From: Verrucomicrobium sp. BvORR034
Lineage (GTDB): Bacteria > Verrucomicrobiota > Verrucomicrobiia > Verrucomicrobiales > Verrucomicrobiaceae
Direction of reading: 5' to 3'
DNA: 64,000 bases
Assembly: GCF_000739635.1 (NCBI RefSeq)
Contig: NZ_BATQ01000056.1
Coordinates: 1 to 64,000 of the forward strand
How positions within the stretch are numbered: position 1 is the first letter of the stretch; every line of letters begins with the position of its first letter. Below are positions 25,407-44,390 of this stretch, piece after piece. The position numbers were made by a program, and so were the translations under genes. Below the pieces are notes generated by a model, which was not told the origin of the DNA, did no database searches, and saw only the letters and a program-made list of their open reading frames with translations.

Positions 25407-28400
25407 ATGAGACTCACCCACCTCAACCTGCATCGCCTGCGGCGAAACAAAGGCGTAGCTCTGATTCTGGTAATCTCCGTGCTAGCGCTGTTGACGATAT
25501 TGTCGGTGGCGCTTTTCTCGGTGTCCGAAACTGAGCGATCATCCTCGGCTGCTCAGTATGATCAGGAACACGGTCGCGAACTGGGCGACACAGCGGTGAA
25601 CGTCGCAATGGGGCAGATCTGGCAAGGCACTAAGAGGAAAACCAACTCCGGCAGCGGTCCTACCGCTTTCCTGTGGGCCTCACAGCCAGGCGCGATTCGT
25701 CGCTACAATCTGGATGGCACGTTCAATGCCGGATTCCGTCTGTACTCCAGTTCCCAAATGATTGTTACCGGGAGTGAGACGGCGATGATTGGGGATGCTC
25801 CTCCACCGAATTGGAACACCATGCCAGCAAGGTATGTCGATCTTAACGATCCTGTAATTCGACCCACGCCAGGAATCGGCACAGGAGCCGCAGTTTATTT
25901 CCCCATTATTGACCCCCGGGCCTACGTAGGTGATTCCAGTGCTCAGAGTATCCGAAACATCGAGGGATTCAGCTATGGAACAAGATCGTTGATTGCTGGC
26001 GCAGGAGGCGGTTCTGACATCTATGGGGTCAAGGTGGCTGCCAACATGGATGATACCACCGCACGGTTGGCCATGCCTGTTGAGTGGTTGTATGTGTTGA
26101 AGGACGGCACTCTGGGGGCGCTAAACGGCTCCAATGAATTTGTCAAGCCCAATGGATCGGTGCTTGCCTTGGCTGAAGCAGCACAGAATCCGATCGTTGG
26201 CCGGGTCGCTTTCTGGACTGACGACGAGTCCTGCAAGATCAACATTAATACCGCCAGTGAGCCAACAGTCTGGAATACACCGCAGGTCTTCCATGAGCGG
26301 GACATCTGGTGGGCACACTATCAACCTACCACCTATGAGTATCAGCGTTATCCTGGCCACCCTGCCACGGTAGCTTTGAGCTCCGTTATGTTCCCCAACC
26401 AGGACATGGATCTGTATGGTAAAGATCCATCCAGCGCTTCCTTCAAGGCAATCCTCCGGAAGAAAGAGTCAATCTACAACTTGGCACCAAAGATCAACTT
26501 TGGTGGTTCGAAGGCTGGGAGTGAGCCCTACTGGAAATTTGTCGACAATTTCAAGACATATCAGTCGGTGATGTATGAGCAGTACGTCAGCTTGGCTCAG
26601 TCCGTCAAAGAGAGGCTGTACGCCTCTGTGGATGAGCTCTACTTCTCAAATGATCTGGTCAACAAGAAGCGTGGGTTGGTGTCGATGCTCGACGACAATG
26701 GGAGTGCAACATCGCAGAACCTTTTCTCACTGCCAGGGGAGGCGGCATCCAATGATAAAGTGATGCTAGAGCGGGCTCGGTTCTTCCTGACTGCAAACAG
26801 CCGGATGCCAGAGACCAATATGTTCGGGACACCCCGCATTGCCATTTGGCCTGTGGCGGACGAGTCCAAGGGCGCGGCTTTCCGTACTGGGTTTGATCAG
26901 CTCATCGCCTTCTGTTCGTCGATGGGGCAGCGTACCAATACCAGCACTGCCAAGAGCTACTTTTTCCGGAGGAAGAACGCCTACAGCCCTACTGAGGATA
27001 TTCAGATTCAGCGCAATGCAGCGTTGCTGTCCTATCTGATGTCACTCATGCATCAAAAGATGCCCGGTGGTGCCACGTTTGCCACCAAGTATCCAGATGA
27101 CTACAAGCAAATCTTGGTCGAGATTTTTGACTATGTTCGCGCAACGAATCTCTATGATGGGTTCTTGGCTCCGAAAAAAGAGGATCTTCAAAAGGCAGGC
27201 GGACCGTACGACCTGAACAATGGTACCAAATTTGGCAATGGACCTGGTGAAATCAGCGCGGATGGTCAAATTTACAGGAACCGACCCAAGAATTTTAAGA
27301 CCTTCACGTATGACCGGGCAAGTGCTAGTGAGACTCGCACCGGCAGTGACTTGGGTGGTGCTGGAACTGAGCGCCAAGTGGAGCGTAACTTCCCTGGACA
27401 TGGCATGGTCACACCTTCTCAGTTGGAAGGTGGCACATACATGGGGTTTGGGCGTTTCCTGACTCTCTCTGAAGTTGGATTTCAGTTCATTTGCACGGCA
27501 GATGGCACTACGGACAAGGGGAGCTATCGTACTTTGGTGCCTGGCACCGAGCCGAATACGTGGGTCAAGGGTCCAGTCGCCAGCGGCGGGCGGACAGCCG
27601 TTCGCATCATTCGTCATACCGGTGGTGGCAAAGGGAATGGATTACCGGGTGAATACGATGATTCCTTCCTTGGCAAGAGGGAGAAACTCTTCTGGTACTC
27701 CAACTATCCTCCCCGGCCGACTGCTGCAACAATGCGCAATTTTTATGGTGTGGATCCTAATGCGGGACCAGACAAGCCCAATAGCCCTTACAACCACCCT
27801 GGATGTCAGCCGGCAAACTGGAATGCTACACTTCGCAGCGGGGCGCCACCTCTTGCCGCTGGTGAGCGGCAGATCCAAGGCATGCTTGTGCTGAAGTTGA
27901 CCATGCCCGCAGCTGGTTTCACTGAAATGAACGCCGACTTCACCCTTGAGATCGAAGGGCTGGGGGAGATGACCTTGAATGGCAACGAGCTTTATGGCCG
28001 GTCAAACAACAGAATGTTCTGGAAGTCGCCCCAAAACGTCTTTGACTCCACCCATTGCCGTCCGGTTGGTGGGGCCATTAGCTCCCATGCAATGACCGTG
28101 AATCGGCGAATCGGAACACAAGGGCAAGTAGGAATCAGCGCCGACGTGGGCTACGATTCCAGTGCGAATTCTGGAGGTGATCCACATCGTGGCACGAAGA
28201 ATTTCGATCTCACGACTCGATTTGTCACGGTTGTGCCGGATGGCCAGGACGCTATGCAATTTGGAGGTGGTCCGCTTATCATCAAGCTCTACAGCGGCCA
28301 TTTGACCACGGACGAAAACTTGGTGCAGACCTTTTCGCTCACCATGCCATCCCGGTCCATCCCTGTGCCGCAACTAGTTACCCTCAGCTCAGACCATGAA

Positions 28401-30386
28401 CAGTGGCAAAACTCTGATGGCACCGTGGACTGGAATGAGGCTACGGATGCCCCACGTTGGTGGGCGCTCAACTTCTCTGGAGCGTTGAATCGCTTCGTGG
28501 GTGCCTGGGTCGGCGCGGCCGGCGGTTGGAATAGCGTTAGTCTGCAGAACGATCTGAATACTCCTTTGGCAACTCGGACCAAAGGTCGATTCTTCACCAA
28601 TGGCGGCAAAGACCGTACTACAGCGGGGAATGCACCGCGCGGAGCCACTACACTTTGGGCATATGAACCAGGTGGTGGCAACTTCAACTCCGGCCTGATT
28701 AACCCAACCAACCCCGCCCAAGACTCGGCTTCCGATGTCCACAGTGACACTAAATACTCCGACACTAAACCCGAAGACGGTGCGGCGCGTGATTCCCGTG
28801 GGGCTGACACGCTTTTCACCATGGTGCCAGTGCACGGGGATACCCGACTAGTGGCGGCAACGAAAGAAGTCGGACCAGACATGTGGGTGGAGCATCCGCG
28901 GAATAATCTACTTGGCTTGGATAAGCCTGGAACGAACAGTTCAACCTCGTTTCGGCAGTATGTTGCTCACAATCTCAACCGGTTCTATAGCGACACCGAT
29001 GCCGGATATGACCGCGGTGATGTTCGCTATCGGCTGATTGCTAATGCGGCTTACAACGGCGCGAGAATTCCAGATGTGCCCTCCTCTGTTCAGCCGACCT
29101 TCGTCAACAATGCCCGCCGCTATGGTGACTTTGACAACGGCATCGCAGGTTTGCGTGATGGACCATACATCAACAAGCCTGATGAGGGAGATGCTGCGCT
29201 GACATTCCACGCATATGGTAACAACAACTCGCAGACAGTGCGTCTTCCCAATGCGTACTTGGCGACCTACGACTATGGTTGGCTGTTCTCTGATCCGGGT
29301 GAGAGCTTCATGACGCCCAACAGAATTCTTCCTTCTCCTGGCATGTTCGGGTCATTACCGACAGGGGTGAAGTCCAGAGAGCCTTGGAAGACGTTGCTCT
29401 TCAGGCCGAACCTCAAACCTTCCACCAATGCAACCTATGGTCCCGGTATGGCCAATCATCCGGGGGCGGCCTCTTGGCAGAAGGGTGTGGATCCAGCAGA
29501 CCATTACTTCATGGATCTGTTCTGGATGCCCATCGTTGAGCCATACGCCATTAGTGAGCCTTTCTCGACGGCTGGAAAAGTGAACATCAACTATCAGATT
29601 GTTCCCTTCACTCACATCCGCCGTGCTACGGGCATTCATGCGGTCATGAAAGGTGAAATCATCAGAGCCATCCCGCGGGATGACGCTGGAAACTACCTCA
29701 ACATGCCTGGTACCACCAAAGATGTCACGACGACTGACAATTACATGTATCGTCAACCTTGGACGGATGTGTCAACCCGGCAGGTGCCAGGGGCGAACAT
29801 GAAGCAGTGGTATCGCAGCATTGAAGTGGAGAAGCGTGCTGGTACAACAGTGACCGGAACGCTGAAGCAGTTCGAAAGTCGGTTCAATTTCACGGAAGAG
29901 AGGGACTATACACCTCCAACGGCACAGGCCGGCCTGTTCCGCACGGCAAGTCAAGTGTGCGAAATCTACTTGATGCCCAAGAGAACGTCGGCAACCGGTG
30001 ACGGCAATGATGCCACCGTCTCTACGGACTACACCCCGCAAACGGTAAGTGACTTCTGGGCAATTCGCCGACTGACAGGGGACAACACCAAGGAAAAGCC
30101 TTACACCAACATCTATGGTAAAATCACCACCCAAAGCAACACCTTTAGAGTGCACTATCGTGCTCAGGTAGTGCGGAAGGCCCGCTCGGTGGAAGCTAAC
30201 AGGTTTGTTCCTGGTCAGGATGCGGTGCTCACTGACTATCGCGGTTCGTCATTGATTGAACGGCGTATTGATCCCGGCAACCCGGACATTCCAGACTATG
30301 CAACGAGTACGAGCCCCACGAGTTTGAGGCCGCTCGATGACTTCTACCGGTTCCGCGTGCTGGAAGTGAAGCGGTTCATGCCCTGA
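25407..30386 (+). CDS. Verru_Chthon cassette protein A (GspK-like, very large)
   Basis: A 1659-residue protein matching my knowledge of Verru_Chthon cassette protein A. The N-terminus is prepilin-like: a short basic leader (MRLTHLNLHRLRRNKG), then VALILVISVLALLTILSVAL and a charged SVSETERS, resembling PilX/GspK rather than a classical pilin. Near residue 275 (about 26230) is the motif CKININTASE, like the KxNxNTA motif of GspK. A second KVNINYQIVPFTHIRRATG motif lies near residue 1390 (about 29577). GspK is usually about 300-350 residues, so this is several times longer; the extra part contains no domain I recognise. By analogy with GspK it would sit at the tip of a pseudopilus in the periplasm. 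It is the first gene of a tight operon with B, C, D and giant 2. No Shine-Dalgarno sequence precedes it. Confidence 0.8.
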   Translation: MRLTHLNLHRLRRNKGVALILVISVLALLTILSVALFSVSETERSSSAAQYDQEHGRELGDTAVNVAMGQIWQGTKRKTNSGSGPTAFLWASQPGAIRRYNLDGTFNAGFRLYSSSQMIVTGSETAMIGDAPPPNWNTMPARYVDLNDPVIRPTPGIGTGAAVYFPIIDPRAYVGDSSAQSIRNIEGFSYGTRSLIAGAGGGSDIYGVKVAANMDDTTARLAMPVEWLYVLKDGTLGALNGSNEFVKPNGSVLALAEAAQNPIVGRVAFWTDDESCKININTASEPTVWNTPQVFHERDIWWAHYQPTTYEYQRYPGHPATVALSSVMFPNQDMDLYGKDPSSASFKAILRKKESIYNLAPKINFGGSKAGSEPYWKFVDNFKTYQSVMYEQYVSLAQSVKERLYASVDELYFSNDLVNKKRGLVSMLDDNGSATSQNLFSLPGEAASNDKVMLERARFFLTANSRMPETNMFGTPRIAIWPVADESKGAAFRTGFDQLIAFCSSMGQRTNTSTAKSYFFRRKNAYSPTEDIQIQRNAALLSYLMSLMHQKMPGGATFATKYPDDYKQILVEIFDYVRATNLYDGFLAPKKEDLQKAGGPYDLNNGTKFGNGPGEISADGQIYRNRPKNFKTFTYDRASASETRTGSDLGGAGTERQVERNFPGHGMVTPSQLEGGTYMGFGRFLTLSEVGFQFICTADGTTDKGSYRTLVPGTEPNTWVKGPVASGGRTAVRIIRHTGGGKGNGLPGEYDDSFLGKREKLFWYSNYPPRPTAATMRNFYGVDPNAGPDKPNSPYNHPGCQPANWNATLRSGAPPLAAGERQIQGMLVLKLTMPAAGFTEMNADFTLEIEGLGEMTLNGNELYGRSNNRMFWKSPQNVFDSTHCRPVGGAISSHAMTVNRRIGTQGQVGISADVGYDSSANSGGDPHRGTKNFDLTTRFVTVVPDGQDAMQFGGGPLIIKLYSGHLTTDENLVQTFSLTMPSRSIPVPQLVTLSSDHEQWQNSDGTVDWNEATDAPRWWALNFSGALNRFVGAWVGAAGGWNSVSLQNDLNTPLATRTKGRFFTNGGKDRTTAGNAPRGATTLWAYEPGGGNFNSGLINPTNPAQDSASDVHSDTKYSDTKPEDGAARDSRGADTLFTMVPVHGDTRLVAATKEVGPDMWVEHPRNNLLGLDKPGTNSSTSFRQYVAHNLNRFYSDTDAGYDRGDVRYRLIANAAYNGARIPDVPSSVQPTFVNNARRYGDFDNGIAGLRDGPYINKPDEGDAALTFHAYGNNNSQTVRLPNAYLATYDYGWLFSDPGESFMTPNRILPSPGMFGSLPTGVKSREPWKTLLFRPNLKPSTNATYGPGMANHPGAASWQKGVDPADHYFMDLFWMPIVEPYAISEPFSTAGKVNINYQIVPFTHIRRATGIHAVMKGEIIRAIPRDDAGNYLNMPGTTKDVTTTDNYMYRQPWTDVSTRQVPGANMKQWYRSIEVEKRAGTTVTGTLKQFESRFNFTEERDYTPPTAQAGLFRTASQVCEIYLMPKRTSATGDGNDATVSTDYTPQTVSDFWAIRRLTGDNTKEKPYTNIYGKITTQSNTFRVHYRAQVVRKARSVEANRFVPGQDAVLTDYRGSSLIERRIDPGNPDIPDYATSTSPTSLRPLDDFYRFRVLEVKRFMP

Positions 30387-30424
30387 TTGGCGCTCATTTT
30401 TTTAACAGCCTCTCATTTGCAACT

Positions 30425-30976
30425 ATGAGAATTCATTTTGGTATCAAGTCGTTCAAATCGTCCGCAGCATTTTCGTTGCCGGAGGTTGCCATAGCCGTCG
30501 CCATTGCCGCGCTCGGAATCATTTCCATTCTGGGGATCATTCCCACTGGCCTGGAAAATGTGAGGAAAGCGGGAAATGCTATTGCAACAGCTCGAATCTA
30601 CCAACAGATGTTGGGAGAACTTCAGGCTGCGGATTGGGGCAACGAGCAGGGCGGCGGTTTGGGCTGGACGAAGCTTAGCGAATATGATGGGGCCAGGCGG
30701 TACTTCGATGGTGAGGGAACCCCTCTTGGTGTGCCGGGCGTTGGCTTGAACGATGCACTACAGATGCAGTTGGCCTACGTGGCTGAGTATGAATTTGCCG
30801 GTGGGGCGCAGGGTCCGTTGCTCTCAGGGGGAGCTAGCGCAGCCGTAGGGCAGAACAATGACCTCAAAAATGTGCGGATCCATATCGCGGTCACCCCCAA
30901 CCAAGGCTATGTCTTTGAGGACAAGACGGGGGGCAAGCATGAGAAACGGGCTTTTACAGTGGCACGACAGTTTTGA
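30425..30976 (+). CDS. Verru_Chthon cassette protein B (GspI-like pseudopilin)
   Basis: A 183-residue protein starting at ATG 30425, 38 bases after gene A. After a basic leader (MRIHFGIKSFKSS) comes A-A-FSLPEVAIAVAIAALGII, a class III prepilin signal with cleavage expected before Phe and the conserved Glu at mature position 5. The residue before the cleavage site is Ala, where prepilin peptidases usually prefer Gly. A soluble domain with no recognised fold follows. By type II secretion analogy (a short hydrophobic stem, then a helix carrying NVRKAGNAIATARIYQQM) it most resembles GspI/PilV-type minor pseudopilins. It should be processed by a prepilin peptidase encoded elsewhere. No Shine-Dalgarno sequence is seen. 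Confidence 0.8.
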   Translation: MRIHFGIKSFKSSAAFSLPEVAIAVAIAALGIISILGIIPTGLENVRKAGNAIATARIYQQMLGELQAADWGNEQGGGLGWTKLSEYDGARRYFDGEGTPLGVPGVGLNDALQMQLAYVAEYEFAGGAQGPLLSGGASAAVGQNNDLKNVRIHIAVTPNQGYVFEDKTGGKHEKRAFTVARQF

Positions 30977-31024
30977 GTTGTCACGTGGAACAAATTTCAA
31001 GTAAGATTACTAATTCCCCCAAAT

Positions 31025-32107
31025 ATGAGAGGTTTCAACCGAACCTTGTTGGCAAAGTCATCGAAAAATCGCATTCCAGGCTTTACCCTTGTGGAAGTTT
31101 TGGTTTCGATGACCGTTCTTGCGGTGCTTATGATGGTTGTCACCACCGTAATGAGTGATGTCCAGAAGTCGTGGAGACAAGCAAACTCAAAAGTCTCAGA
31201 GTTTCGTGAAGCAAGGCGGGCATTTGACCGAATGGTGAATTCTGTGAGCCAAGCCGAGTTGAATGCCTATCTTTGCTATCGATATGCAGGTTCGACCGAT
31301 CCATTGACACCGCCTTCAAAGACTCTCAAGGATCAGCCGTCAGGCTATGTTCGATACTCTGAACTGCAGTTTGTATGCGGTCCGTCGAGTCTGAACGGTG
31401 CTGTTAAGCTCACCGGCCTTTCGGACTCGCTTTCGCCAGGGCATGCCGTGTTTTTCCAGGCTCCGATGGGGACGTCGAATCAGTACAGGCTCCCTACAGC
31501 CTTGAACGGGTGCGGGTTCTACGTCCGGTTCGGTGATGACGCAGCCTACCGCCCTCCGTTCCTCAACGGACTGAGCAAGAATCCTGTCAATCGGTATCGC
31601 TTGTTTGAGTTTCGAACTCCTGCTGAGGACAACACGGGGTATGATACCAACCAGCCTTGGTATCAGGAATTCGCGTCCTGGAGTCGTCCGATCGCAAACA
31701 ATATCATTCTGCTCATCATCTCACCGCAACTCTCAAATTCAGATGCCACAGGGGCCGGTGGGCTTCCCACGTCCATTGCTCCCAATTACATCTATGACAG
31801 CAGGCCTGCAGGGGGGGTCTCGAGCGGGGATCAGACTCAGCAAGAATATCAACTTCCGCCAATGGTTGCTGTGACCATGGTTGCAATAGATGAGGCGACG
31901 GCCTCCAATCTGGAGTTGGACTCGGGTGCGAATCCACCGCTAGCGGCGGAACTGGATTCGGGCAATCTCTTCAAAAACGCCAACTCCTACCAAGCTGATC
32001 TGGAAAAGCTTGAAGGAAACCTGGTCGCCAAACGTGTGAATTTTCGAGTGTTCACTGCCACTATCCCGATCCGAGCATCAAAATGGGGCAAAGGTACTAA
32101 TTCCTAG
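31025..32107 (+). CDS. Verru_Chthon cassette protein C (GspJ-like pseudopilin)
   Basis: A 360-residue protein starting at ATG 31025, 48 bases after gene B. The leader is basic (MRGFNRTLLAKSSKNRIPG) and is followed by FTLVEVLVSMTVLAVLMMVV, a textbook prepilin signal with Gly before the cleavage site and Glu at mature position 5. The helix continues with SDVQKSWRQANSKVSEFREA, like GspJ/PilW N-terminal stems. The remaining ~300 residues show no family I can name beyond Verru_Chthon protein C. A run of seven G at 31811-31817 lies inside the coding region. Its position in the cassette suggests that it forms a tip complex with A, B and D. Confidence 0.8.
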   Translation: MRGFNRTLLAKSSKNRIPGFTLVEVLVSMTVLAVLMMVVTTVMSDVQKSWRQANSKVSEFREARRAFDRMVNSVSQAELNAYLCYRYAGSTDPLTPPSKTLKDQPSGYVRYSELQFVCGPSSLNGAVKLTGLSDSLSPGHAVFFQAPMGTSNQYRLPTALNGCGFYVRFGDDAAYRPPFLNGLSKNPVNRYRLFEFRTPAEDNTGYDTNQPWYQEFASWSRPIANNIILLIISPQLSNSDATGAGGLPTSIAPNYIYDSRPAGGVSSGDQTQQEYQLPPMVAVTMVAIDEATASNLELDSGANPPLAAELDSGNLFKNANSYQADLEKLEGNLVAKRVNFRVFTATIPIRASKWGKGTNS

Positions 32108-32140
32108 CCCATATTCCACGATCAGCGGAGTCTTCTGAAT

Positions 32141-32884: not shown

Positions 32885-32939
32885 TTTTTCCGTCCCTCAG
32901 CACATTTTCCTACTCTCGGCGTTCTCCCCCTACTCCGTC

Positions 32940-35900
32940 ATGCTCATGTCCACACCTTCACGTACTGACCTCCTACCTCGACTCTTGAAGAGACAGCGCT
33001 CGACATCGCTTGGGCATTCTGTCCAGCGCAAGACTCGATTTGCGAGCATTGCGACAGCGCTAGCCGTGGCTGTTTCCTCGGGCGTATCTTGGGGGCAGAC
33101 CTTTAGTTGGACCAATACGACAACGGGAGATTGGAACAATTCAGCCAACTGGAGTCCATCTGGAGTGCCCAATGGTGCCAGTTCTCAGGCACAGATCACC
33201 AATGCGATCAGTGCCAATGCCATTGTTAACCTCAACTTGGCTGTCACGCTGGGAGACCTGACAATTGGGGAGAGCGATGGAACGCATGCTTTTTGGATAC
33301 GCCCAACTGTTGCCAACGGGACCCTTACTTTCCTTAACAACGTAGCCGATGCGACCCTCGTAAAGAATGGCGGGGCAACCGATGTCATTGAAGCTGCGAC
33401 GACCAGTCTGGACCAAAAGTGGATCATCACTGTAAATGCTGGCGCATTGAATTTGGCGGGCAAGGTTACAGGTCAAACGGGCCGGCTGGAGAAAGAAGGC
33501 GGTTCAACGTTGAACCTCATTGGTTCCCTGAACGTGCAGAACTACGGTGGTGCCACAAGGGGGGTGTTGGTCAACAATGGCACGATGAACATCCTCAACC
33601 CTGCCAACTCTATCGCCAACTTGGTGACAGTGCAGGGTGGCACTCTCAACATTGGGGGTAATGCCGCTTCACGCGCGCTGACTGCTGCTGCCTCAAGTGG
33701 AGCGACACAGTTGACCTTGGATTCCGTCACAGGTTTGAGCGTGGGGATGGCGATTCAGGGGCCTGGTATTTCTTCGGGCACCATCATCACCGGTATCGCC
33801 GGGAATGTCATAACGCTGAGCGTGCCCACTGGTAGTGCATTGAGCGTGAATTCGGAGCGCATTGTCTTTGGTGGTCCCACCTTGGGGATTGCCTCCAGCG
33901 CTGATACCACGCACGTCACGCTGAATTCTGTGGCAGGATTGGCTACAGGCATGACGGTAAGCGGCACCAACATCGCGGCTGGGACCACCATTCTCGCCAT
34001 CGTTGGGAACACCGTCACCTTGAGCCAGGCATACAGCGGTTCCGTTACCGCAAATGATACGTTGTCATTTGGCACGGCATCAAGGAATGGCCTAGCTGGT
34101 GCGTACGGCGGTGGCAACGGTGCAGGATTCGCTACCGCAACGGCGAACGCTGGCGGAAGTACGATCACGCTTAATTCCACAGCCGGCCTCTCCTTGGGTA
34201 TGTTGGTGACCGGTCCTGGCGTACCCGCCAACACCACCATCAGTGCTATCGCTGGGAATCAGATCACTCTCAGCAATCCTCTGTCTGGCACTGGGACGGT
34301 GGTAGCTGTAAATGCACCTTTCTACTTTGGCACCGGCCAGACGACGTTCATTGCTGGGCAGGGGGCGCTTGCCATCACAGGGGGCACAACAAACTTCGGC
34401 ACGGCGGGGAACGCAGCAAATGTTACGATTGATGCTGATCTCATTTCGATTACAGGCGGTACGCTCAATCTCCAGAATGGGAATGGTGGCGGTTTCACTG
34501 ATGTTCGTGCTGGTGCCACCAATAAGCTGAAACTCGATGGGGGGACAGTGGGGACTGCCGCAGGCACTGCGACGGGGTATGTGCGTTTCGCGGATGGAAT
34601 GACTTTGGAGTTGAACAACAACGCCACCTTCAACATCACAGGAATCAGCCAAAACTATACCTTCGCATCCATCGGGCATGGTGTGAGCAGCACCGGTTCT
34701 CCCATCGGCAACGACACCACCATCATCTCATCAACAGGCAATTCCACGCTGACACTCGGTGGTGATGCCACGAACGATGTGTTCAATGGGGCCCTCAACA
34801 TGAGTGGCTCAACGAACTCGAGAATCATCAAGATTGGCAATGAGATTCTGACCTTGGGAGGGGCTCGAGACAACGCTGCGGGACGCGTGGAAGTTCGCTC
34901 TGGAACCGTTGTCTTGGCCAAAGCGAGCAGCCCTACCGTTCATGCTCTGGGTGGCACGTCCACAGTGGGCGATGGAGTGGGTGGTGTTGGGGCGGATGTT
35001 CTCCAGATTGGTGGCACAAACGTCGGGCTAGGCGGTGTCATGATGGGGGCCAACTATCGCGACCAGATTCATCGTGGTGTAACCATCAACTTGACGGCTT
35101 CGGGTGTGTTGGACTTGGCGGGATTCAGTGAGGGCTTCAATCAGCTCAACGGCGTGGTAGGCGGTGAAGTTCGCAACAGTGCGGGCGCAACGACCCAGTC
35201 GACGCTTTTCCTCGGGGAGAACAACCCGGCCGCATTTACTTTCAGTGGCAACATCGGTGGTACGGGGGCGCTTGCCACCCGGAACATCAACTTCTGGAAA
35301 GGCAGCAGCAGCAATATTACCTTTGACCAGCTCAACACCTACACTGGGCAAACGTTGATTGGACGTGCCAGCTTGGTGCTTCAAGGGGCCAACGGCGCCA
35401 TTTCTGGGACAAGCGACCTCTTCGTTACCACAGGTGGTCAGTTCGCGATTCTAGACAACAGCGCGCTCCATGCTTCCAATAATCGTGTCAATGACTCGGC
35501 AACTGTTGTGTTGGACAAAGGTGGCTTGGTGTTGCTTCGTCGCAACAACAACGTGTTGAACCTGAGCACCGAAACCTTTGGCAATCTGACGGTTCAAAAC
35601 GGTTTTAGCCAAGTTCGAATTGACCATTCGGATGGTGCCAACACCACCAGCAACGTTCTGGGCAATCAAGCTACTCTCACCTTCAGCGGTTACACGCACA
35701 ATCAAGGTGGCGTGGTGGCGTTCACGGAGGTCGCCAACGTTTCAGGAACAGCAGCGTTCTCCACAACCAACGCCGCGACAGCCAAATCTCGCGTTCAGTT
35801 CCTCGACTTCGCAACCAATTCCTGGTTGATTGGCGATGAAGTCAAGGTGTTAATTGGTGCATACGGTGGTACGCACAATGGAGCCGTTGACCGTTTGGTA

Positions 35901-38900
35901 ACCTTGGATTCCAGCGGCTATGTCCGTTTGCTGGACACGGGGTCTTCGACCGACTTCCGCACCCGGTTTACCGCCAACGGAACATTTACCGCACCCAACG
36001 TGACTGCGAGCAATTTGGGGACGGCCACACGTGATGATAACGCCGCCAACACCATTGGGACCTTCATCATGAAAATTGACCCAACAGGGTCATCACCCAC
36101 CAATGAACTTAAGGGTGAAGTTAGTTACAATGCCTGGGTCCAATCGGGTAGTGGGTCGGTGACGATCTCGGAGCAGAACATTTTGCACTTGGGTGGGCGG
36201 GCTGCCGATGCAACGTTCGGCTACCTTGCAACTGATGGGACAGGTATGCTGCTCGTAAACAACGGTGGCAGCGTTGTTTTCAACGGCGGCACCGTCAACT
36301 TTGGGGCTCGGGAGGCCAATATTCGGGCAAACAACACAACGACGTTCCGTTCCAAAATTACCGGCTCAAATGGTTTGGTGAAGAGCGGTGGAGCTGTTCT
36401 CATCATGCAGGGATGGAACACTTACAGTGGACTGACCACGCTGACCCAAGGCGAGATTCAGATCTTTACCGACAAGGCTTTGGGCTTGAGTGGGGCTGGC
36501 AACGGCGTGCGGGCCTCCAACGCCAGCATTACGCTCACCAGTGGCGTCAACATTGGTGAGTTCGGACAACCGTCTGGTTCGACTAATGTAACCAAAGATT
36601 TGACGATGGATATCGGCGCGAACCTCCTTCAGGCGACCGACCAAGCCAACGTCTGGAACGGTAAGATCATGATGAATAACGTTTTTGCTTATGGGCAAAA
36701 TGCGAACAACATCACCTTTCGAGCAAACAATGATTCTGTCTTGGTGCTTAATGGTGCCATCACTGGCATCAGCTCGGCATTTGGTGGATTCAACATGGAT
36801 CCTGCATATAACGCACAGGGTGAAGGTCGTGGTCTTATCTTTGAGAATGGCGGCTCTACCGCAAATCGCGGTGGCATAATTCGTGTCAACGGCAGCCTGA
36901 CCGACGAGGATTTCGTCGGTGCGGTGGCCAACCACCAACGGTTGAACGTGTTCATGCGTGGTTACACAGGGCAGAGCAGTGCGACCAACAGCAAATTCAA
37001 CGTATTCCTTAAGGACGCATCGCAGACTAACGGCGTGCTGGACGTTCGTTCTGGCTACCTGCATCTTGAGAACGGCTACGCGTCCGGTGGGGGGCCTGGT
37101 GGAGCGGGGACCAACTTTGTCGTCACTGCTGAGGCTCTGGCGGGCGATCTCACGCTGACGGTTGATTCTGTCGTAGGCCTTACAGTTGGGACGGTGATAA
37201 CTGGAGCAGGCTTGGACGTGGGCACCACGATCGCTGCGATCAATGGCAACGTCATCGTTCTGAGCGTTCCCCTAGTCGGTGATGTTCCGGCGAACAGTGT
37301 CTACTCGTCAGGGGCCGGTGGTACGTTCACGATCATCCGCAACCACGATGGTGGTAACGTTGACCGGGCCGGAACCATCAGCGCCATTCTGCTGAGCAAG
37401 GCGGGGGCAGTATTCCGGTCTCCCAACATTCAGTTGGCTGAAAACGTAGGGTCGTACTCATCAAATTCGACCCATATCATGGGCGGTGAACATACCTCTG
37501 GCACGGCAATTTTTGGTAGTGGAGCCAACACAGTGGATCTCAATCCCATCACTGGAACTTCGGGTTTCTCGGTGTCGATTGGTGGAACCGCCATTAATTC
37601 CGGCGTCAATTCGTTGGCGATTTCCAGCACTTCGAATTTGCGGGTTGGCTATGGGGTTGCCGGGACGGGCATTCCAGCGGGGGCAAAAATCGGGTCAATC
37701 TCCGGCAACACGATCACAATTGTGGATGCCAATGGCAACCCGATCAACACGTCTGCTGGCATTCCTGCCAACACTTCGCTCACTTTCGGCTACCTTAGTT
37801 CGACCACCAACAAGATCACCACGGCAGCGGCGCCTGTTCTGACTCTCAATAAGACTCCGACCTTCGGATTTGGAACTGGAGAGGGGCAGATTCCGATGAA
37901 TTCAGTGTCCGGTCTGGTCGTCGGCATGACCGTGACTGGGCAGGGTATTGCGCCTAACACTACCATTTCCAGCATTGACTATAATAGTGGTGTCATTTCG
38001 CTCAGCACAACCACCACCGGCAATGACAATGGAACGATTACATTTGGCATTGCGACCAACTCCAGTGTGATCATGGTCAACAACATCAGCGGACTCACCG
38101 CTGGGTCCGGCATCTCTGGTACTGGAATTCAAGGGGATACTAGGATTGCTTCTATCGACCAAGTCTCGCCCGGCTTGTACGCGCTGACGCTGACGCGTAA
38201 TACCAATGCCGCTCCTGGCGCCTCACCGACCTACGAGTTCTACCAACCCACGAATACCATCCAATTGTCAGATGTGACGGGGCTTCAAGTCGGTATGGGC
38301 ATTGCGGGCACTGGTATCCGTGCTGGTACGATCATCACGGGAATTGATCCGGTCACTCGTACGATCACGATGAGCGCTCCGACGAATGGTTTGGCTCCTG
38401 CCAGCCAGGCCTACACGTTCCCGCTTCCGGTGGTGAGTTATAACGTAGGATTGAATGCTCCTTCTGGAACAAGTGTGCTGAACCTCTCTTCGGTGGCCGG
38501 ACTTGTAGTCGGCACAACGGTCAGCGGTACTGGTATTCAAAATGGCACTGTCATTCTCGCGATCGACACGGCCACGAACACCATCACTCTCAGCCTCCCT
38601 ACCAATGCTGCGCTGACGTCGAACTCGAGCTCGATCAACATCCAAAAGAACTCGAACTATGCGGAAGCGAGATTGTACCAGCAAGAAGGTGGTACTACTG
38701 ATTTCCAGCTGCGGTTCACTGAAGACGGAGGATTTGGCCTCCAGAATGAGGTCGCTGGCCTAACCAAAGTGGGGCGTGGCACGACTATTGTCAGTGGTAG
38801 CACTACGGGTGCAGGTGATCTTGATGGCGGTGTCAACGTCCATGGTGGAGCTCTTGTCTTTTCATACGGCAGCGTCAACGGCAACAACTCCCGTGTTAAC

Positions 38901-41900
38901 GGAGCTGGTGCGGGTGCGATCTCCGCGTCCCCCTACCAGCTTACCATGGCTGGCGGTGAATTGAGACTGGAGAATCTTGGAACTGCAGGGAATGTTGTGG
39001 AGAGTCTCCGTGGTGTGCTCACTCTGCGGCCTGGTGGATCCTCAATCACAGGTAAAGCTGCACTGAGTGCGACCATTACGCTTCATTTGGGCTTGGATAA
39101 CCCATTCACTCCCTTCATCACCACGCCGATAGTTAACGGCTCAATTCAGAAGGTGGTGGCCAACCCCAACTGGTACTGGCGTGATCCTGATCGCTATGCT
39201 GGCGCGACATTGAATTTTGTCATTGATCCCTCCCAACAGGGGACCACTCGCTATTACTATTCGCAGAATGCTCTGGATGGTGACGGCATCAATGGCGGCG
39301 GTGGATTGGGTTACTTTACAGCTCTGCCATACATGACAATCAAGACTGCGGCTCCAGGAGACACCGCGTATGTCGACTTTGCCTCATTCATCTCAGAGCC
39401 GACGGGTACGCAGAGCAACACGTTGATTGGTGACTCGAGCGGTGTAATGGGATCAAATCTCTATAATCTCAACAATGAAAATGGGGCAGCCAATGTCAGC
39501 AACTGGGATTTGTATGCCAGAGGCCTGATGGATGGTGACAACCCTGGAGATATTGGGGTCATCAATACCGGCTATTTCACGGACGACCTTCTTGGCGGTA
39601 CGTCTGCAAAGTACTCGGGAACTCTCCAGGCCAACTACGGCAATGACTTTTACGGCGCGAAGCTGATCCGCTACGCTGCCAACCTCGCCGATAGCACCAT
39701 TACCATCGCCTCTGGAACAAGGTTGGTGGTGGGTGCTCAAACCGACTACCACAGCTTCACCGCTGCTGCGGGAGACGCAACCAAGGCGGGTGGCGCGATC
39801 CTAATCTCGAACTCTGTAGGCGCTCACAATCAGTTCCTTCTTGGTGGGCAGATTACGTCCGCGCTTCTCAGCAATTATGCGGCCCCGGCACCCAAGGTGG
39901 CAAACACGGGGGCTGCGGCAACTGCCGGGGCCAACTCCGTCACCCTCACTTCAACTTCGGGTCTGACGGTAGGAATGACCGTGGTGGGAGTTGGCGTTGC
40001 TCCTGGTACCACGATCACGGGTATTTCAGGCAATGTGATCACACTTAGCACTGGGCTGACCTACTCGTTGAGTGGAAATCAGAAGCTGGAGTTCAACTCC
40101 ATGTGGATGCCTGGTGCTCTGACGCGCCCCAACGACACCACTGCGCTTATTACGAATCCGTCCCCCGATGCGAGTCAGTACGTGTCTCGCGATCTGGTCA
40201 TTCACAACTACAACGAGTCCGGCGTGTTCACCGTGGGGTCTCAAGTTGTGGACTACACCGGGGCTCCGTCCGGCCCTTCGAAGCTCAATTTGGTCGTGTC
40301 TGGTCCAGGGGTTACGCATCTCACGAATGCCGCAAACAGCTATACAGGTTCAACTTTTGTGAACGGAGGCGGCGTTAATGACGTCACCGGACAGCCTATT
40401 ATTGGCACCTTGTGGATTGCCAACCAGAATCGCCTTGGAACAGTGCCAGCGACGACCAATCCGAGCAGCATCTACCTGAACGGCGGACGCCTTCGATTTG
40501 CCGCTGATACCAACCCCAGCACCACCAACCTTGGGAATCTGACTCTGGACGCGCGTCGTGGTATTACTTTGGGCGGTAATGGAGGTTACATCGAACTCGT
40601 TGGCTCTACGCCAGATAGTGGTACCACCCTGCAGTATGACGGGATCATCCGTTCTGAAGACAATTACCAGTCGGGTAATACCGCCGCGAATCAGTTGCTT
40701 GCCAACCCGGGTGTAGGAGACCTTATCAAAGAAGGAAATGGTCGATTGATTCTTACTAATAGTAAGACGATCTCACCTTTGATTGGCCCGATCTCGTCCT
40801 CATTTACCCTGTGGAATGCCTACTATGGACTCACTGAGGTTCGTGGTGGTGTGCTCGAACTCCGCATCAATCAGGCGGATTCTGGAATTCTTGGCAGCAA
40901 TGATACGACTATCGACGGGACGGTTGTTCGGAGTGGAGCTCGCCTCGACTTCGAAATTACGGGTGGTGCAGGCAATGGTACCAAAGAATGGATCAATTTG
41001 AACGGTGGTACGTTGGGCACTACGGCCAATCACGTGGATGGCACTCTGGATGGTGTGATCAATGTGACGGCGAATAGTACCATCGATGTTGCAGGAGGTT
41101 CCGCCCTCCCCAACGGTGCGGTGCGTACACTCCGTCTTAACACCAGTGCTGGCTACCTTTCGGGAACCGGGCGGATCACGAAGACCGGAGCGGGGCGCTT
41201 GGTGTTGTTTGAAAACAACTCTGAATTCACAGGTGGTTGGGAGATCCGTGGAGGCTCGGTGATCGGTCGCTCACAAGGCCTGCCTGTGGGGCAAACCGGC
41301 AACATTTTGCTTGGTGACACCAGTTCGAATCCCGCAGTCGGCACTGCTGGTCTCTATCTTGCGAGCCGCATCATGGGCAGCAACTTTACGAGCGAATACA
41401 ATGTGAAGAACGACATTGTTGTTCGGGCTCCTGCTGCCGGTTCTCAGATCAAGGAGATCGGTGCGCAAAATAGCGTTACCGACCTTGGACCCACGTTGAG
41501 CTTGGGCTCGGTGTCTTACAGCAATGGTGGAAACACCATCAATGTTGGTGTGGCCAATGCTGGCAGTTTCCATCCGGGGATGGTTGTCACCGGTGCCAAC
41601 ATCCATCCTGGTACAGTGGTGACCGCCGTAAACTTCGACACTGGCGTTGTCACGGTGAGTCGTAACTTCTACGGTGCTGGAACCTCGATAACGGGGACCT
41701 CGTTTGGCACATCTCTCACAGGAACGACTGTGAGCGGCAGCAACATCGTAAACGTCCCGGGCGGTGTGTCCAATCTCTTCACTGGAATGCAGGTCTCGGG
41801 GCCTGGCATCGCTGCAGGAACGGTTATCACCGCCATCAACGCGGTAACAAATCAGGTGACCCTGAGTTCTAATGCCAGCACGACAACGGGCGTGGCATTT

Positions 41901-44390
41901 GCAACGCTTGCAAATCAGGGGGCGTCGACAACGAGCGGCAACGCCACGATTACCATCACTGGTGCGAATGCTGCAGCGGTCATGGCGACCTTGTTCCCTG
42001 GGATGCAGGTCTCTGGTACCAACATTCCGGCCGGTGCAACCATTGTGTCGGTGAATCATTCAGCCAATCAGATCACTCTGAATACGAACGCATCCGCAAC
42101 TGGGGCGATTGTTAACTTCGGGGCCCAGAAGAACTTCAATACCATTAGCGGCAGCAATGTGGTGACGGTCACTGGAAATGTCACTGGGCTCACGGTGGGA
42201 CAGGTATTGAATGGCATTACTGGCATCCCCAATGGCGCGACCATTCAGTCCATTGATCCGATCACAAACAAGATCACCATCAGTCAAAATGCCACTGTCA
42301 CCAATGTTTCGGTGGCTGGAGCGTCGTACACCACTGGTCAAAACAATGACATCTACAGGTATTCTGGGAGTATTACGCTCAATGACGGGTTGCAGCTTGC
42401 TTACCGGGATGTGGGCGTCAATGCCGGGTTGGTCAATTCTTCCACGGTAAATACCACAGCCACGTTGTCTGGCGGCAATACCATTGTAGTGGCGAATGCC
42501 AGCGGACTAACCGTGGGCATGGAAGTGATTGGGGCCGGTATTCCGGCTGGAGCGACGATTACAGCTATCTCCGGGACGACAATCACTTTGAATGTCCCTA
42601 CCATGGGAACTGGATCGGGGTTCTTCCTGACCGCATCGAACAACATCTGGGGTGCTCAGCAGGGTGGCCCGGTTCGTAGAATCGTCGTGGATGGTCAACT
42701 CTCAGGCAGCGGTGGACTTACTACGGTGGTTGACCTTGCTGGAACGGTCGGAAATCTGGTGCGGACCTACTTTGAGATCAATCATGCCAACAACTCAGGT
42801 TGGACCGGCAGTCTCGTAACCGGGAATGCAAGCGACATTCAGACACAGCAGCATGTCGTGCGGTTTGGTAGCAGTGGTGCGATCAGTTCGTCCAATAGCG
42901 TGACCATGAAGTACAACACTTCACTCGAAGTTGGAGGCAACAATCTCACTATCGGCAATCTCACAATTGATGCTGGAGTTGTCGCAACGGGTAATGGCGC
43001 AGCAATCAAGGGCATCATCATTGAAAATGCATCGAACAATGCTGGCTCCATCCGGATTGTCCAAAATGCCAACAGCAACTGGGATGCCCTCTTCCAGAAC
43101 GGGATCACTCCTGCGATCTACAGTGCAGCCTCAACCAGCACGCATGACAACAGTCTGAGTATCATCAAAGCTGGTACGGGAGTCGCAACGTTGACCCAGA
43201 ACAACACCTATACTGGAACGACGACCATCGAGAATGGCACGCTCAGATCTGGGGCCAACAATGTAATCCCTGATGCTAGTGCCGTCACGGTGAATGCGAC
43301 GGGGGCTGGGGTGACAGCAGTGTTGGATCTTAACGGGTTCAACGACACCATTGCCTCACTCACCCTTGGGGGAAGTACTACTACCAGTACGGCCAACGTC
43401 CAAACTGGTGCAGGAACTCTCACGGTGCTTGGCAACGTTACCTATAGCGCTGCCAACAACGCCCAGACTTCGACTGTGACTGGCAATGTGGCTCTCACTT
43501 CTGCCTCCACCACCTTTACCGTGGGGGACAGTACTACTGCGGCAACTGACCTTATGGTTACGGCAGCATTGAGTGGCTCAGTTGGTATTGTCAAGGATGG
43601 GGCAGGCCTCATGGCCCTTGGCGGCAACAACACCTATACTGGCAATACTACGGTGAATGCAGGTAACCTGCAGGTCGGTGTGGGTGGCGTGGGGCGCACC
43701 AGCGCGTTGGGTGGGACTGGGGTTACCACGGTCGCTGCAACGGCTACTATCTCAGGTACAGGTACGGTGAGTGGTACGGCTGGAGTGACAAACCACGTGG
43801 TGAATGGCACCATTCGCCCAGGGGACAGCGGGGGCTCAGGAAACGGTACGTTGACGTTTTCGGGCAATCTCAATACTGCCGCAGCCACGTCGCAGTTCGC
43901 TCTCCAGTTGGGATCGACCAACTACGTGTACTCCAATGCATCGGCGCTGGAGACGCCAGGTTCAGGTGCGTACACAGCCGCCATCGCTCAAATCACCACG
44001 GATATGAGCACGCAAGCCGCAGTGGGGTATGACAAGGTGGACGTGAAGGGTACACTCACTTTGGGCACGGACACTCGGTTCACCGTGACGTACGCAGCGG
44101 GCACAACAGACTTTGCAGTCGGCTCGGTCTTCAACCTCCTTGACTGGACGACCATCCTCACCGGTGGCAACTCAAACGGTGCCCTCGGTAACGGAACTCG
44201 CGGTGCCGGATTGCTTGGGGACATGGACCTTCCGACGCTTGGTGCTGGCAAGTTCTGGGATGTTTCCCAGTTCTATACCCATGGCATCATCTTTGTCGCC
44301 GGGGCGGTGCCTGAGCCAAGCCGTGTGGTGCTTCTTTTGATCGCATTCGGCGCGGCAGTCATGCGCCGCCGCCGTCGTTCGGCCTGCTAG
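32940..44390 (+). CDS. Giant autotransporter-repeat PEP-CTERM surface protein 2
   Basis: A 3816-residue protein from ATG 32940 (a second ATG at 32946 is equally possible). A long signal peptide has a basic n-region of about 33 residues and a hydrophobic core, with cleavage likely after SWG near residue 52. A W.N..TGDWNNSANW.P.GVPN opening follows. Beta-strand repeats of the K.G.G...L.G.NTYTG type occur near 36375, 38760, 41175, 43165 and 43595. Fifteen copies of a different ~60-residue repeat are inserted in six places (listed separately). The C-terminal ~180 residues resemble giant 1, with NL(I/L)DW, LDLP.L, W..S.F and then VPEP (residues 3790-3793), a hydrophobic helix and RRRRRSAC. It lacks a beta-barrel. 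Surface or matrix location after exosortase processing is inferred. It is the last gene of the cassette operon, and a strong hairpin follows. Confidence 0.9.
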   Translation: MLMSTPSRTDLLPRLLKRQRSTSLGHSVQRKTRFASIATALAVAVSSGVSWGQTFSWTNTTTGDWNNSANWSPSGVPNGASSQAQITNAISANAIVNLNLAVTLGDLTIGESDGTHAFWIRPTVANGTLTFLNNVADATLVKNGGATDVIEAATTSLDQKWIITVNAGALNLAGKVTGQTGRLEKEGGSTLNLIGSLNVQNYGGATRGVLVNNGTMNILNPANSIANLVTVQGGTLNIGGNAASRALTAAASSGATQLTLDSVTGLSVGMAIQGPGISSGTIITGIAGNVITLSVPTGSALSVNSERIVFGGPTLGIASSADTTHVTLNSVAGLATGMTVSGTNIAAGTTILAIVGNTVTLSQAYSGSVTANDTLSFGTASRNGLAGAYGGGNGAGFATATANAGGSTITLNSTAGLSLGMLVTGPGVPANTTISAIAGNQITLSNPLSGTGTVVAVNAPFYFGTGQTTFIAGQGALAITGGTTNFGTAGNAANVTIDADLISITGGTLNLQNGNGGGFTDVRAGATNKLKLDGGTVGTAAGTATGYVRFADGMTLELNNNATFNITGISQNYTFASIGHGVSSTGSPIGNDTTIISSTGNSTLTLGGDATNDVFNGALNMSGSTNSRIIKIGNEILTLGGARDNAAGRVEVRSGTVVLAKASSPTVHALGGTSTVGDGVGGVGADVLQIGGTNVGLGGVMMGANYRDQIHRGVTINLTASGVLDLAGFSEGFNQLNGVVGGEVRNSAGATTQSTLFLGENNPAAFTFSGNIGGTGALATRNINFWKGSSSNITFDQLNTYTGQTLIGRASLVLQGANGAISGTSDLFVTTGGQFAILDNSALHASNNRVNDSATVVLDKGGLVLLRRNNNVLNLSTETFGNLTVQNGFSQVRIDHSDGANTTSNVLGNQATLTFSGYTHNQGGVVAFTEVANVSGTAAFSTTNAATAKSRVQFLDFATNSWLIGDEVKVLIGAYGGTHNGAVDRLVTLDSSGYVRLLDTGSSTDFRTRFTANGTFTAPNVTASNLGTATRDDNAANTIGTFIMKIDPTGSSPTNELKGEVSYNAWVQSGSGSVTISEQNILHLGGRAADATFGYLATDGTGMLLVNNGGSVVFNGGTVNFGAREANIRANNTTTFRSKITGSNGLVKSGGAVLIMQGWNTYSGLTTLTQGEIQIFTDKALGLSGAGNGVRASNASITLTSGVNIGEFGQPSGSTNVTKDLTMDIGANLLQATDQANVWNGKIMMNNVFAYGQNANNITFRANNDSVLVLNGAITGISSAFGGFNMDPAYNAQGEGRGLIFENGGSTANRGGIIRVNGSLTDEDFVGAVANHQRLNVFMRGYTGQSSATNSKFNVFLKDASQTNGVLDVRSGYLHLENGYASGGGPGGAGTNFVVTAEALAGDLTLTVDSVVGLTVGTVITGAGLDVGTTIAAINGNVIVLSVPLVGDVPANSVYSSGAGGTFTIIRNHDGGNVDRAGTISAILLSKAGAVFRSPNIQLAENVGSYSSNSTHIMGGEHTSGTAIFGSGANTVDLNPITGTSGFSVSIGGTAINSGVNSLAISSTSNLRVGYGVAGTGIPAGAKIGSISGNTITIVDANGNPINTSAGIPANTSLTFGYLSSTTNKITTAAAPVLTLNKTPTFGFGTGEGQIPMNSVSGLVVGMTVTGQGIAPNTTISSIDYNSGVISLSTTTTGNDNGTITFGIATNSSVIMVNNISGLTAGSGISGTGIQGDTRIASIDQVSPGLYALTLTRNTNAAPGASPTYEFYQPTNTIQLSDVTGLQVGMGIAGTGIRAGTIITGIDPVTRTITMSAPTNGLAPASQAYTFPLPVVSYNVGLNAPSGTSVLNLSSVAGLVVGTTVSGTGIQNGTVILAIDTATNTITLSLPTNAALTSNSSSINIQKNSNYAEARLYQQEGGTTDFQLRFTEDGGFGLQNEVAGLTKVGRGTTIVSGSTTGAGDLDGGVNVHGGALVFSYGSVNGNNSRVNGAGAGAISASPYQLTMAGGELRLENLGTAGNVVESLRGVLTLRPGGSSITGKAALSATITLHLGLDNPFTPFITTPIVNGSIQKVVANPNWYWRDPDRYAGATLNFVIDPSQQGTTRYYYSQNALDGDGINGGGGLGYFTALPYMTIKTAAPGDTAYVDFASFISEPTGTQSNTLIGDSSGVMGSNLYNLNNENGAANVSNWDLYARGLMDGDNPGDIGVINTGYFTDDLLGGTSAKYSGTLQANYGNDFYGAKLIRYAANLADSTITIASGTRLVVGAQTDYHSFTAAAGDATKAGGAILISNSVGAHNQFLLGGQITSALLSNYAAPAPKVANTGAAATAGANSVTLTSTSGLTVGMTVVGVGVAPGTTITGISGNVITLSTGLTYSLSGNQKLEFNSMWMPGALTRPNDTTALITNPSPDASQYVSRDLVIHNYNESGVFTVGSQVVDYTGAPSGPSKLNLVVSGPGVTHLTNAANSYTGSTFVNGGGVNDVTGQPIIGTLWIANQNRLGTVPATTNPSSIYLNGGRLRFAADTNPSTTNLGNLTLDARRGITLGGNGGYIELVGSTPDSGTTLQYDGIIRSEDNYQSGNTAANQLLANPGVGDLIKEGNGRLILTNSKTISPLIGPISSSFTLWNAYYGLTEVRGGVLELRINQADSGILGSNDTTIDGTVVRSGARLDFEITGGAGNGTKEWINLNGGTLGTTANHVDGTLDGVINVTANSTIDVAGGSALPNGAVRTLRLNTSAGYLSGTGRITKTGAGRLVLFENNSEFTGGWEIRGGSVIGRSQGLPVGQTGNILLGDTSSNPAVGTAGLYLASRIMGSNFTSEYNVKNDIVVRAPAAGSQIKEIGAQNSVTDLGPTLSLGSVSYSNGGNTINVGVANAGSFHPGMVVTGANIHPGTVVTAVNFDTGVVTVSRNFYGAGTSITGTSFGTSLTGTTVSGSNIVNVPGGVSNLFTGMQVSGPGIAAGTVITAINAVTNQVTLSSNASTTTGVAFATLANQGASTTSGNATITITGANAAAVMATLFPGMQVSGTNIPAGATIVSVNHSANQITLNTNASATGAIVNFGAQKNFNTISGSNVVTVTGNVTGLTVGQVLNGITGIPNGATIQSIDPITNKITISQNATVTNVSVAGASYTTGQNNDIYRYSGSITLNDGLQLAYRDVGVNAGLVNSSTVNTTATLSGGNTIVVANASGLTVGMEVIGAGIPAGATITAISGTTITLNVPTMGTGSGFFLTASNNIWGAQQGGPVRRIVVDGQLSGSGGLTTVVDLAGTVGNLVRTYFEINHANNSGWTGSLVTGNASDIQTQQHVVRFGSSGAISSSNSVTMKYNTSLEVGGNNLTIGNLTIDAGVVATGNGAAIKGIIIENASNNAGSIRIVQNANSNWDALFQNGITPAIYSAASTSTHDNSLSIIKAGTGVATLTQNNTYTGTTTIENGTLRSGANNVIPDASAVTVNATGAGVTAVLDLNGFNDTIASLTLGGSTTTSTANVQTGAGTLTVLGNVTYSAANNAQTSTVTGNVALTSASTTFTVGDSTTAATDLMVTAALSGSVGIVKDGAGLMALGGNNTYTGNTTVNAGNLQVGVGGVGRTSALGGTGVTTVAATATISGTGTVSGTAGVTNHVVNGTIRPGDSGGSGNGTLTFSGNLNTAAATSQFALQLGSTNYVYSNASALETPGSGAYTAAIAQITTDMSTQAAVGYDKVDVKGTLTLGTDTRFTVTYAAGTTDFAVGSVFNLLDWTTILTGGNSNGALGNGTRGAGLLGDMDLPTLGAGKFWDVSQFYTHGIIFVAGAVPEPSRVVLLLIAFGAAVMRRRRRSAC
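33685..34330 (+). repeat. VGM repeats 1-3 of giant 2 (tandem)
   Basis: Three tandem copies of a ~60-residue repeat: V/L-T-L-(D/N)-S-(V/T)-.-G-L-(S/A).G-M..-.-G.(G/N)(I/V)..(G/N)T.I..I.GN.(I/V)TLS. Examples are GLSVGMAIQGPGISSGTIIT, GLATGMTVSGTNIAAGTTIL and GLSLGMLVTGPGVPANTTIS. Each copy ends with F.FG or similar. Confidence 0.8.
37120..37315 (+). repeat. VGM repeat 4 of giant 2 (single)
   Basis: One copy: GLTVGTVITGAGLDVGTTIA followed by AINGNVIVLSVP. It stands alone between GGPGGAGTNF and a TFTIIRNHDGGNVDRAGTIS segment. Confidence 0.75.
37590..38645 (+). repeat. VGM repeats 5-9 of giant 2 (tandem)
   Basis: Five tandem copies, the longest run. Core strings in order are NLRVGYGVAGTGIPAGAKIG, GLVVGMTVTGQGIAPNTTIS, GLTAGSGISGTGIQGDTRIA, GLQVGMGIAGTGIRAGTIIT and GLVVGTTVSGTGIQNGTVIL. 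Neighbouring copies differ clearly, so this is not a recent nucleotide duplication. Confidence 0.8.
39920..40095 (+). repeat. VGM repeat 10 of giant 2 (single)
   Basis: One near-consensus copy: GLTVGMTVVGVGVAPGTTIT then GISGNVITLS. It is embedded in the giant 2 relative of the HQH module (FLLGG before it, DLVIHNYN after it). Confidence 0.75.
41510..42340 (+). repeat. VGM repeats 11-14 of giant 2 (tandem)
   Basis: Four tandem copies with cores SFHPGMVVTGANIHPGTVVT, LFTGMQVSGPGIAAGTVIT, LFPGMQVSGTNIPAGATIV and GLTVGQVLNGITGIPNGATI. They sit between segments (KEIGAQ and YRYSGSITL) whose counterparts in giant 1 are almost adjacent (near 23710-23770). Confidence 0.75.
42455..42645 (+). repeat. 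VGM repeat 15 of giant 2 (single)
   Basis: One copy: GLTVGMEVIGAGIPAGATIT then AISGTTITLNVP. It interrupts the segment LQLAYRD...VVDGQL, which is continuous in giant 1 (LALYIED...HFNGQF, near 23780-23850). Confidence 0.75.
44307..44387 (+). other. PEP-CTERM sorting signal of giant 2
   Basis: The last 27 residues are VPEPSR, a hydrophobic helix (VVLLLIAFGAAVM) and a strongly basic tail RRRRRSAC. The layout is the same as in giant 1 and fits an exosortase substrate. Confidence 0.88.

Follow-up and report, generated by a model that had tools for sequence, protein, structure and literature searches.

Verru_Chthon cassettes of Verrucomicrobium sp. BvORR034 encode minor pseudopilin-like proteins and are linked to surface-protein genes

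What four prepilin-like genes do between two genes for giant surface proteins is the question raised by the window analysed here, a stretch of 64,000 nucleotides of Verrucomicrobium sp. BvORR034 (contig C145:1-64000 of the 8.58-Mb assembly). The genes in question, A, B, C and D, are successive + strand open reading frames (ORFs) spanning 25407-32884, and the N-termini of their products are prepilin-like (lengths in amino acids, aa):

25407..30386, + strand: cassette protein A, 1659 aa, GspK-like minor pseudopilin with a large insertion, TIGR02600
30425..30976, + strand: cassette protein B, 183 aa, putative GspI-like minor pseudopilin, TIGR02598
31025..32107, + strand: cassette protein C, 360 aa, GspJ-like minor pseudopilin, TIGR02599
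32141..32884, + strand: cassette protein D, 247 aa, putative GspH-like minor pseudopilin, TIGR02596

The gaps between the genes are 38 bp (A-B), 48 bp (B-C) and 33 bp (C-D), and D is separated by 55 bp from the downstream giant gene. Scored against the NCBIfam models, A reached 998 bits with TIGR02600 (cut-off 332), B 80 bits with TIGR02598 (cut-off 51), C 329 bits with TIGR02599 (cut-off 257) and D 93 bits with TIGR02596 (cut-off 70). The curated cut-offs are thus exceeded by all four adjacent proteins, and A-D is a complete Verru_Chthon cassette. A chance origin is excluded by the 22 B matches (16 above the cut-off) and about 24 A genes found in the genome, which indicate about 24 cassettes per genome. 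The families TIGR02600, TIGR02598, TIGR02599 and TIGR02596 are subfamily models with names but no function, and a literature search found no paper naming the Verru_Chthon cassette or tying it to PEP-CTERM giants. What is added here is a structural assignment together with statistics on the neighbouring genes; with the former, four named but unexplained protein families gain a concrete structural identity.

The predicted structure of the window C protein (pLDDT 87.5) has a GspJ fold. The ten best matches of the model were GspJ/EpsJ/XcpW or the Thermus pilin TTHA1219, with Z scores of 9.8-10.9, and the next match was at 4.3; above Z 5, only GspJ-type minor pseudopilins and this one Thermus pilin were found. 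When the PDB was searched by sequence with the C profile, most matches fell on the pilin helix at the N-terminus.

For A, a model (pLDDT 81, pTM 0.85) was derived from 55 aligned A proteins, with a 1195-aa homologue (L185) as the lead sequence. Its best PDB match, after re-alignment of 1000 Foldseek candidates, was GspK of the GspK-GspI-GspJ complex (3ci0_K; Z 7.7, root-mean-square deviation 3.7, 260 of 280 residues), in an alignment spread over model residues 29 to 1195. Apart from this, matches above Z 4 were confined to one long helix of about 40 residues, after which the score fell to Z 3.2. A sequence search of the PDB with the A profile gave no match, and when A was aligned by hhalign with individual GspK sequences, only the N-terminal region was covered. 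A Z score of 7.7, being below 8, is middling on its own by the warning of the tool. The GspK-like fold is argued for by this score together with the N-terminal part of A, which matched the GspK profile (96%, E 4e-9), the NxN motif, the absence of the +5 glutamate from the N-terminus as in GspK, the gene order and the profile cross-table described below. A preliminary description of this DNA had pointed to a GspK-like CKININTASE motif in A, and this motif is present at residues 273-285 (DESCKININTASE). The following stretches of the A gene are of note:

26235..26255, + strand: first KxNxNTA motif of A (K277-A283), invariant or nearly so among A homologues
29574..29591, + strand: second GKxNxN motif of A (G1390-N1395), in conserved columns about 1100 residues past the first motif
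30123..30170, + strand: C-terminal TTQSNTFRVH of A, similar to the LTVRS..FRV found close to the GspK end, the C-terminal profile match being weak when taken alone

Between ends with median lengths of 294 (N-terminal) and 280 residues (C-terminal), A proteins have a central region of 691-1144 residues, which contains their most variable and most insertion-rich stretch. Modelling and sequence together give good support for a GspK-like fold in A, built around a large insertion.

In the cross-table of profiles, A was best matched to GspK and C to GspJ, B was tied between GspI and GspJ, and D between GspG and GspH; D matched the GspH model at 1.6e-6. The labels B, C and D were taken from the NCBIfam models, as purpose-built profiles for these proteins drift onto their common N-terminus. 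Sequence and gene position support B as GspI-like and D as GspH-like. By the curated models the order A-B-C-D of the window becomes D-B-C-A in sibling cassettes on C38 (54-61 kb) and C19, and B-C-D-A on C21. The E. coli order gspH-I-J-K corresponds to D-B-C-A if D is H, B is I, C is J and A is K. The earlier equation of A, B, C and D with GspK, GspI, GspJ and GspH is therefore borne out for A and C by predicted structure and for B and D by their sequences and gene positions, and it also fits the gene order of some siblings. The reading of A-D as a pseudopilin tip is well supported.

The cassette is like the tip GspH-GspI-GspJ-GspK of the type II secretion system (T2SS; XcpUVWX; PDB 3ci0, 5vtm, 9a1f) in its four prepilin-like proteins, the predicted folds of A and C, the missing +5 glutamate, the NxN motif and the H-I-J-K order of some siblings. 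Unlike that tip, it occurs in about 24 copies per genome, adjoins surface-protein genes and lies outside a T2SS operon; among the loci read, with the orders D-B-C-A in siblings and A-B-C-D in the window, none had a cassette inside such an operon. A also differs from the GspK of these systems in being 3-6 times larger through its insertion.

The second line of evidence is the neighbourhood of the cassettes. In the window these neighbours are:

1861..25134, + strand: giant surface protein upstream of the cassette, 7757 aa, with beta-strand repeats of the PATR type and PEP-CTERM (VPEPGR...) at the C-terminus
32940..44390, + strand: giant surface protein downstream of the cassette, 3816 aa, with PATR repeats and PEP-CTERM at the C-terminus

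The upstream frame has 7801 codons if the TTG at 1729 is used, and the ATG at 1861, which is followed by a signal-like peptide, is its likely start. Both giants carry PATR/TIGR02601 repeats and are closed by PEP-CTERM (TIGR02595); only these two were matched, and a C-terminal outer-membrane beta-barrel of the autotransporter (type V secretion) kind was not found in them. The four prepilin-like genes, their gaps and the flanking PEP-CTERM giants of 7757 and 3816 aa are all present as had been described. Across the genome, PEP-CTERM genes made up 17 of the 52 immediate neighbours of 26 cassette clusters, against 0.56 expected from about 74 PEP-CTERM genes among ~6900 genes (a total estimated from genome size), and 15 of these 17 share the strand of the cassette. 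Among the 26 clusters are a pilin pair that belongs to the C154 machine and a cassette that is split into two. The linkage of cassettes to surface-protein genes is thus far beyond chance, about thirtyfold, and a PEP-CTERM gene stands within two genes of 17 of the 26 clusters. The lengths of the linked PEP-CTERM partners range from 251 to 7801 aa. Of the adjacency that the preliminary description had proposed to survey, the linkage stood and a giant beside every cassette did not. The partner class is better named surface protein than giant, because small partners exist, many giants are unlinked, and giants occur in families without A above the cut-off.

In terms of the PEP-CTERM/exosortase system (PMC1569441), most of the linked partners end in PEP-CTERM, both window giants carry this C-terminal signal, and three exosortase matches were found in the genome. 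The genome has about 72 PEP-CTERM genes above the cut-off, comparable to the 65 reported for Verrucomicrobium spinosum. Unlike that system, which is defined by the sorting signal and the exosortase, the cassettes of one clade of relatives have partners without PEP-CTERM.

A survey of A (TIGR02600) over 388 genomes found it above the cut-off only in the family of the window and in one genome of another family. Other families of the order carry PATR giants without A above the cut-off in this survey; in one of them, a PATR repeat lies within an open frame of 18,596 codons (G406 C8). Weak TIGR02600 matches in 208 of the 388 genomes were rejected as a sign of a wide spread of A and were not counted, because the distant loci that were read belong mostly to another family of ~1200 aa, without NxNTA and without a cassette, ending in FRWL. 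This family, seen at L196-L201, L204-L209 and L215 with a GspK/PilX-like N-terminus and no Verru_Chthon cassette, is common across other Verrucomicrobiota families and seems to occur there in several copies.

Among 80 cassette loci of relatives, taken from named genomes, a large same-strand ORF lies immediately upstream of A in about half. These loci are not independent, since many of them represent the same orthologous locus before guaB. Some of the upstream giants end in PEP-CTERM, and others in a different conserved region near GYF...SG.V.F. Two giants without PEP-CTERM that were scanned (L146 and L129) have PATR repeats and Ig domains, and that of L146 also DUF5122 propellers. A rule of PEP-CTERM partners holds for most linked partners in this genome and fails in one clade of relatives; what is constant across the relatives is the linkage to a large repeat protein. 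The loss of B in some cassettes (L132, L135, L139, L140, L144, L146, L155 and L177), in which C begins 1-33 bp after A or overlaps it, is not coupled to the loss of PEP-CTERM, because L150 combines a B-less cassette with a PEP-CTERM giant while L129 and L156 combine B with a giant of the other type. A joint exchange of cassette and giant upstream of guaB was considered and dropped, as the guaB tree places the two giant types in separate clades and divergence in place suffices.

The machinery on which such tips could act is encoded elsewhere in the genome, as the preliminary description had supposed for the main secretion machine, the prepilin peptidase and the exosortase. Two T2SS loci (C116 and C24) contain E, F, G, K, M-like and D genes, prepilin peptidase matches lie on C110 and C111, and the three exosortase matches have been mentioned above. 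Further GspE/PilB- and GspF/PilC-type genes occur at C154, C187 and C189; in total fifteen secretin and fourteen T2SSE-family matches were found, and the six other cassette-bearing genomes tested all have homologues of GspD, the T2SS secretin. The cassettes far outnumber the machines, and they are regarded as additional tips because both T2SS loci own a GspK of ordinary size (315 and 340 aa).

The observed basis for a mechanism consists of the family identity, the GspK- and GspJ-like predicted folds, the H-I-J-K order of siblings, the multiplicity of the cassettes, their linkage to surface-protein genes and the separately encoded machinery with its own GspK. On balance, we lean towards the view that the cassettes are interchangeable tips on shared machinery, exporting or displaying the linked surface protein. 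Each would be a full extra set of T2SS-like minor pseudopilins, with D GspH-, B GspI-, C GspJ- and A GspK-like. We infer that the prepilin peptidase of the cell would cleave A-D, that the four would then form a tip complex, and that one of the few shared machines would provide the pseudopilus on which this complex assembles. The specificity of the tip would come from the large insertion of A. This insertion may engage the surface protein of the adjacent gene, which would be exported through a secretin or displayed at the tip. The ~24 cassettes would in this way be interchangeable heads for the same machinery. A role of the tip in cargo choice has a precedent, as the minor pseudopilin tip has been described as critical for binding type II secretion substrates (PMC6211770). 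A more specific form of the proposal, possible but rather doubtful, has one or two type II machines in common use and ~24 interchangeable tip sets that reprogram them; the oversized insertion of A would be a receptor fitted to the linked surface protein, and the cargo would be selected by exchanging tips. Cargo recognition by type II secretion is an old open question, and it becomes directly testable in a genome where ~24 tip sets, mostly adjoining the gene of a candidate cargo, stand against only two T2SS loci, each equipped with a GspK.

Several observations weigh against interchangeable tips. A scores 28.5 bits, in its N-terminal part only, against a cut-off of 130 for the curated GspK equivalog NF037980, which makes A GspK-like but places it outside that equivalog. 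Foldseek alone gave no significant match for A, 3ci0_K being only at rank 23. One clade has lost B but keeps A, C and D, and GspI is a core component of the known tips. About a third of the cassettes lie more than two genes away from any PEP-CTERM gene. Conversely, a cassette is missing beside many PEP-CTERM proteins and giants, including at least ten PEP-CTERM giants; by our own count, about 16 of 26 PEP-CTERM frames above 1200 aa are unlinked. In favour of interchangeable tips, the length of A rises with that of the linked PEP-CTERM protein in this genome (rho 0.79, n = 16, P 2e-4; for A above 1200 aa only, rho 0.62, P 0.02), but this correlation is a lead rather than a result, since the pairs were compiled by hand and relatedness is uncorrected.

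An unlikely alternative is that the four proteins form a type IV pilus-like priming and tip-adhesin complex, in which the neighbour would be an adhesin like PilY1 with FimU, PilV, PilW and PilX, and the function would be attachment and not secretion. The closest functional analogue is found in Myxococcus xanthus, where one machine is served by three clusters that each combine four minor pilins with a single PilY1 as the large surface protein (PMC7541494). PilB/PilC/PilT-type genes in the genome, a weak PilX_N match in 3 of 18 A proteins, and the Ig domains and DUF5122 beta-propellers in the partner giants of relatives are in line with such a complex. However, structure and sequence favour GspK and GspJ over PilX and PilW as far as tested, and no PilY1 family match was obtained among the partners scanned. 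PEP-CTERM partners would moreover be expected to pass the inner-membrane exosortase. The cassettes also differ from the M. xanthus clusters in having PATR/PEP-CTERM or Ig/DUF5122 partners instead of PilY1, in numbering ~24 instead of three, and in their pseudopilin-type folds and order.

Less probable still is that the oversized A is itself displayed or secreted, carried by B, C and D, while the PEP-CTERM neighbour is co-regulated and never touches the cassette. A reaches ~1840 aa among relatives, its insertion has a beta-sandwich-like part (model residues 537-786), several cassettes lack a PEP-CTERM neighbour, and one pair of A genes stands without B, C and D. Against this, the linkage to surface-protein genes lies about thirtyfold above chance and persists in relatives after the loss of PEP-CTERM, and the length of A tracks that of the partner. 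A tip dedicated to giant proteins only, as first proposed, is very improbable and as an exclusive rule is contradicted by small partners and unlinked giants: in spite of the giant on each side of the window cassette and the large ORFs upstream of A in relatives, many of which belong to the one locus before guaB, there are partners of 251-292 aa, giants of 4241, 7022, 5090 and 2694 aa whose surroundings, as far as they were read, contain no pseudopilin gene, and PATR giants in families without A above the cut-off in the survey.

Scans for promoters and terminators gave no more matches than in shuffles. The second giant gene is followed on the same strand by a gene for an RND efflux permease (1057 aa, 44534-47707), with no sign of cassette membership. 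The tandem A pair lies at C38:116378-125450 (L023), behind a 1746-aa PEP-CTERM gene. At C23:29826-35066 (L042/L043), a cassette is adjoined by a 1746-aa ORF with a weak PEP-CTERM match in its middle, possibly a fusion or an assembly frameshift. Finally, the A protein encoded at C65:39364-44478 (L036/L037) has a nearly identical counterpart in Verrucomicrobium sp. BvORR106 (L116).
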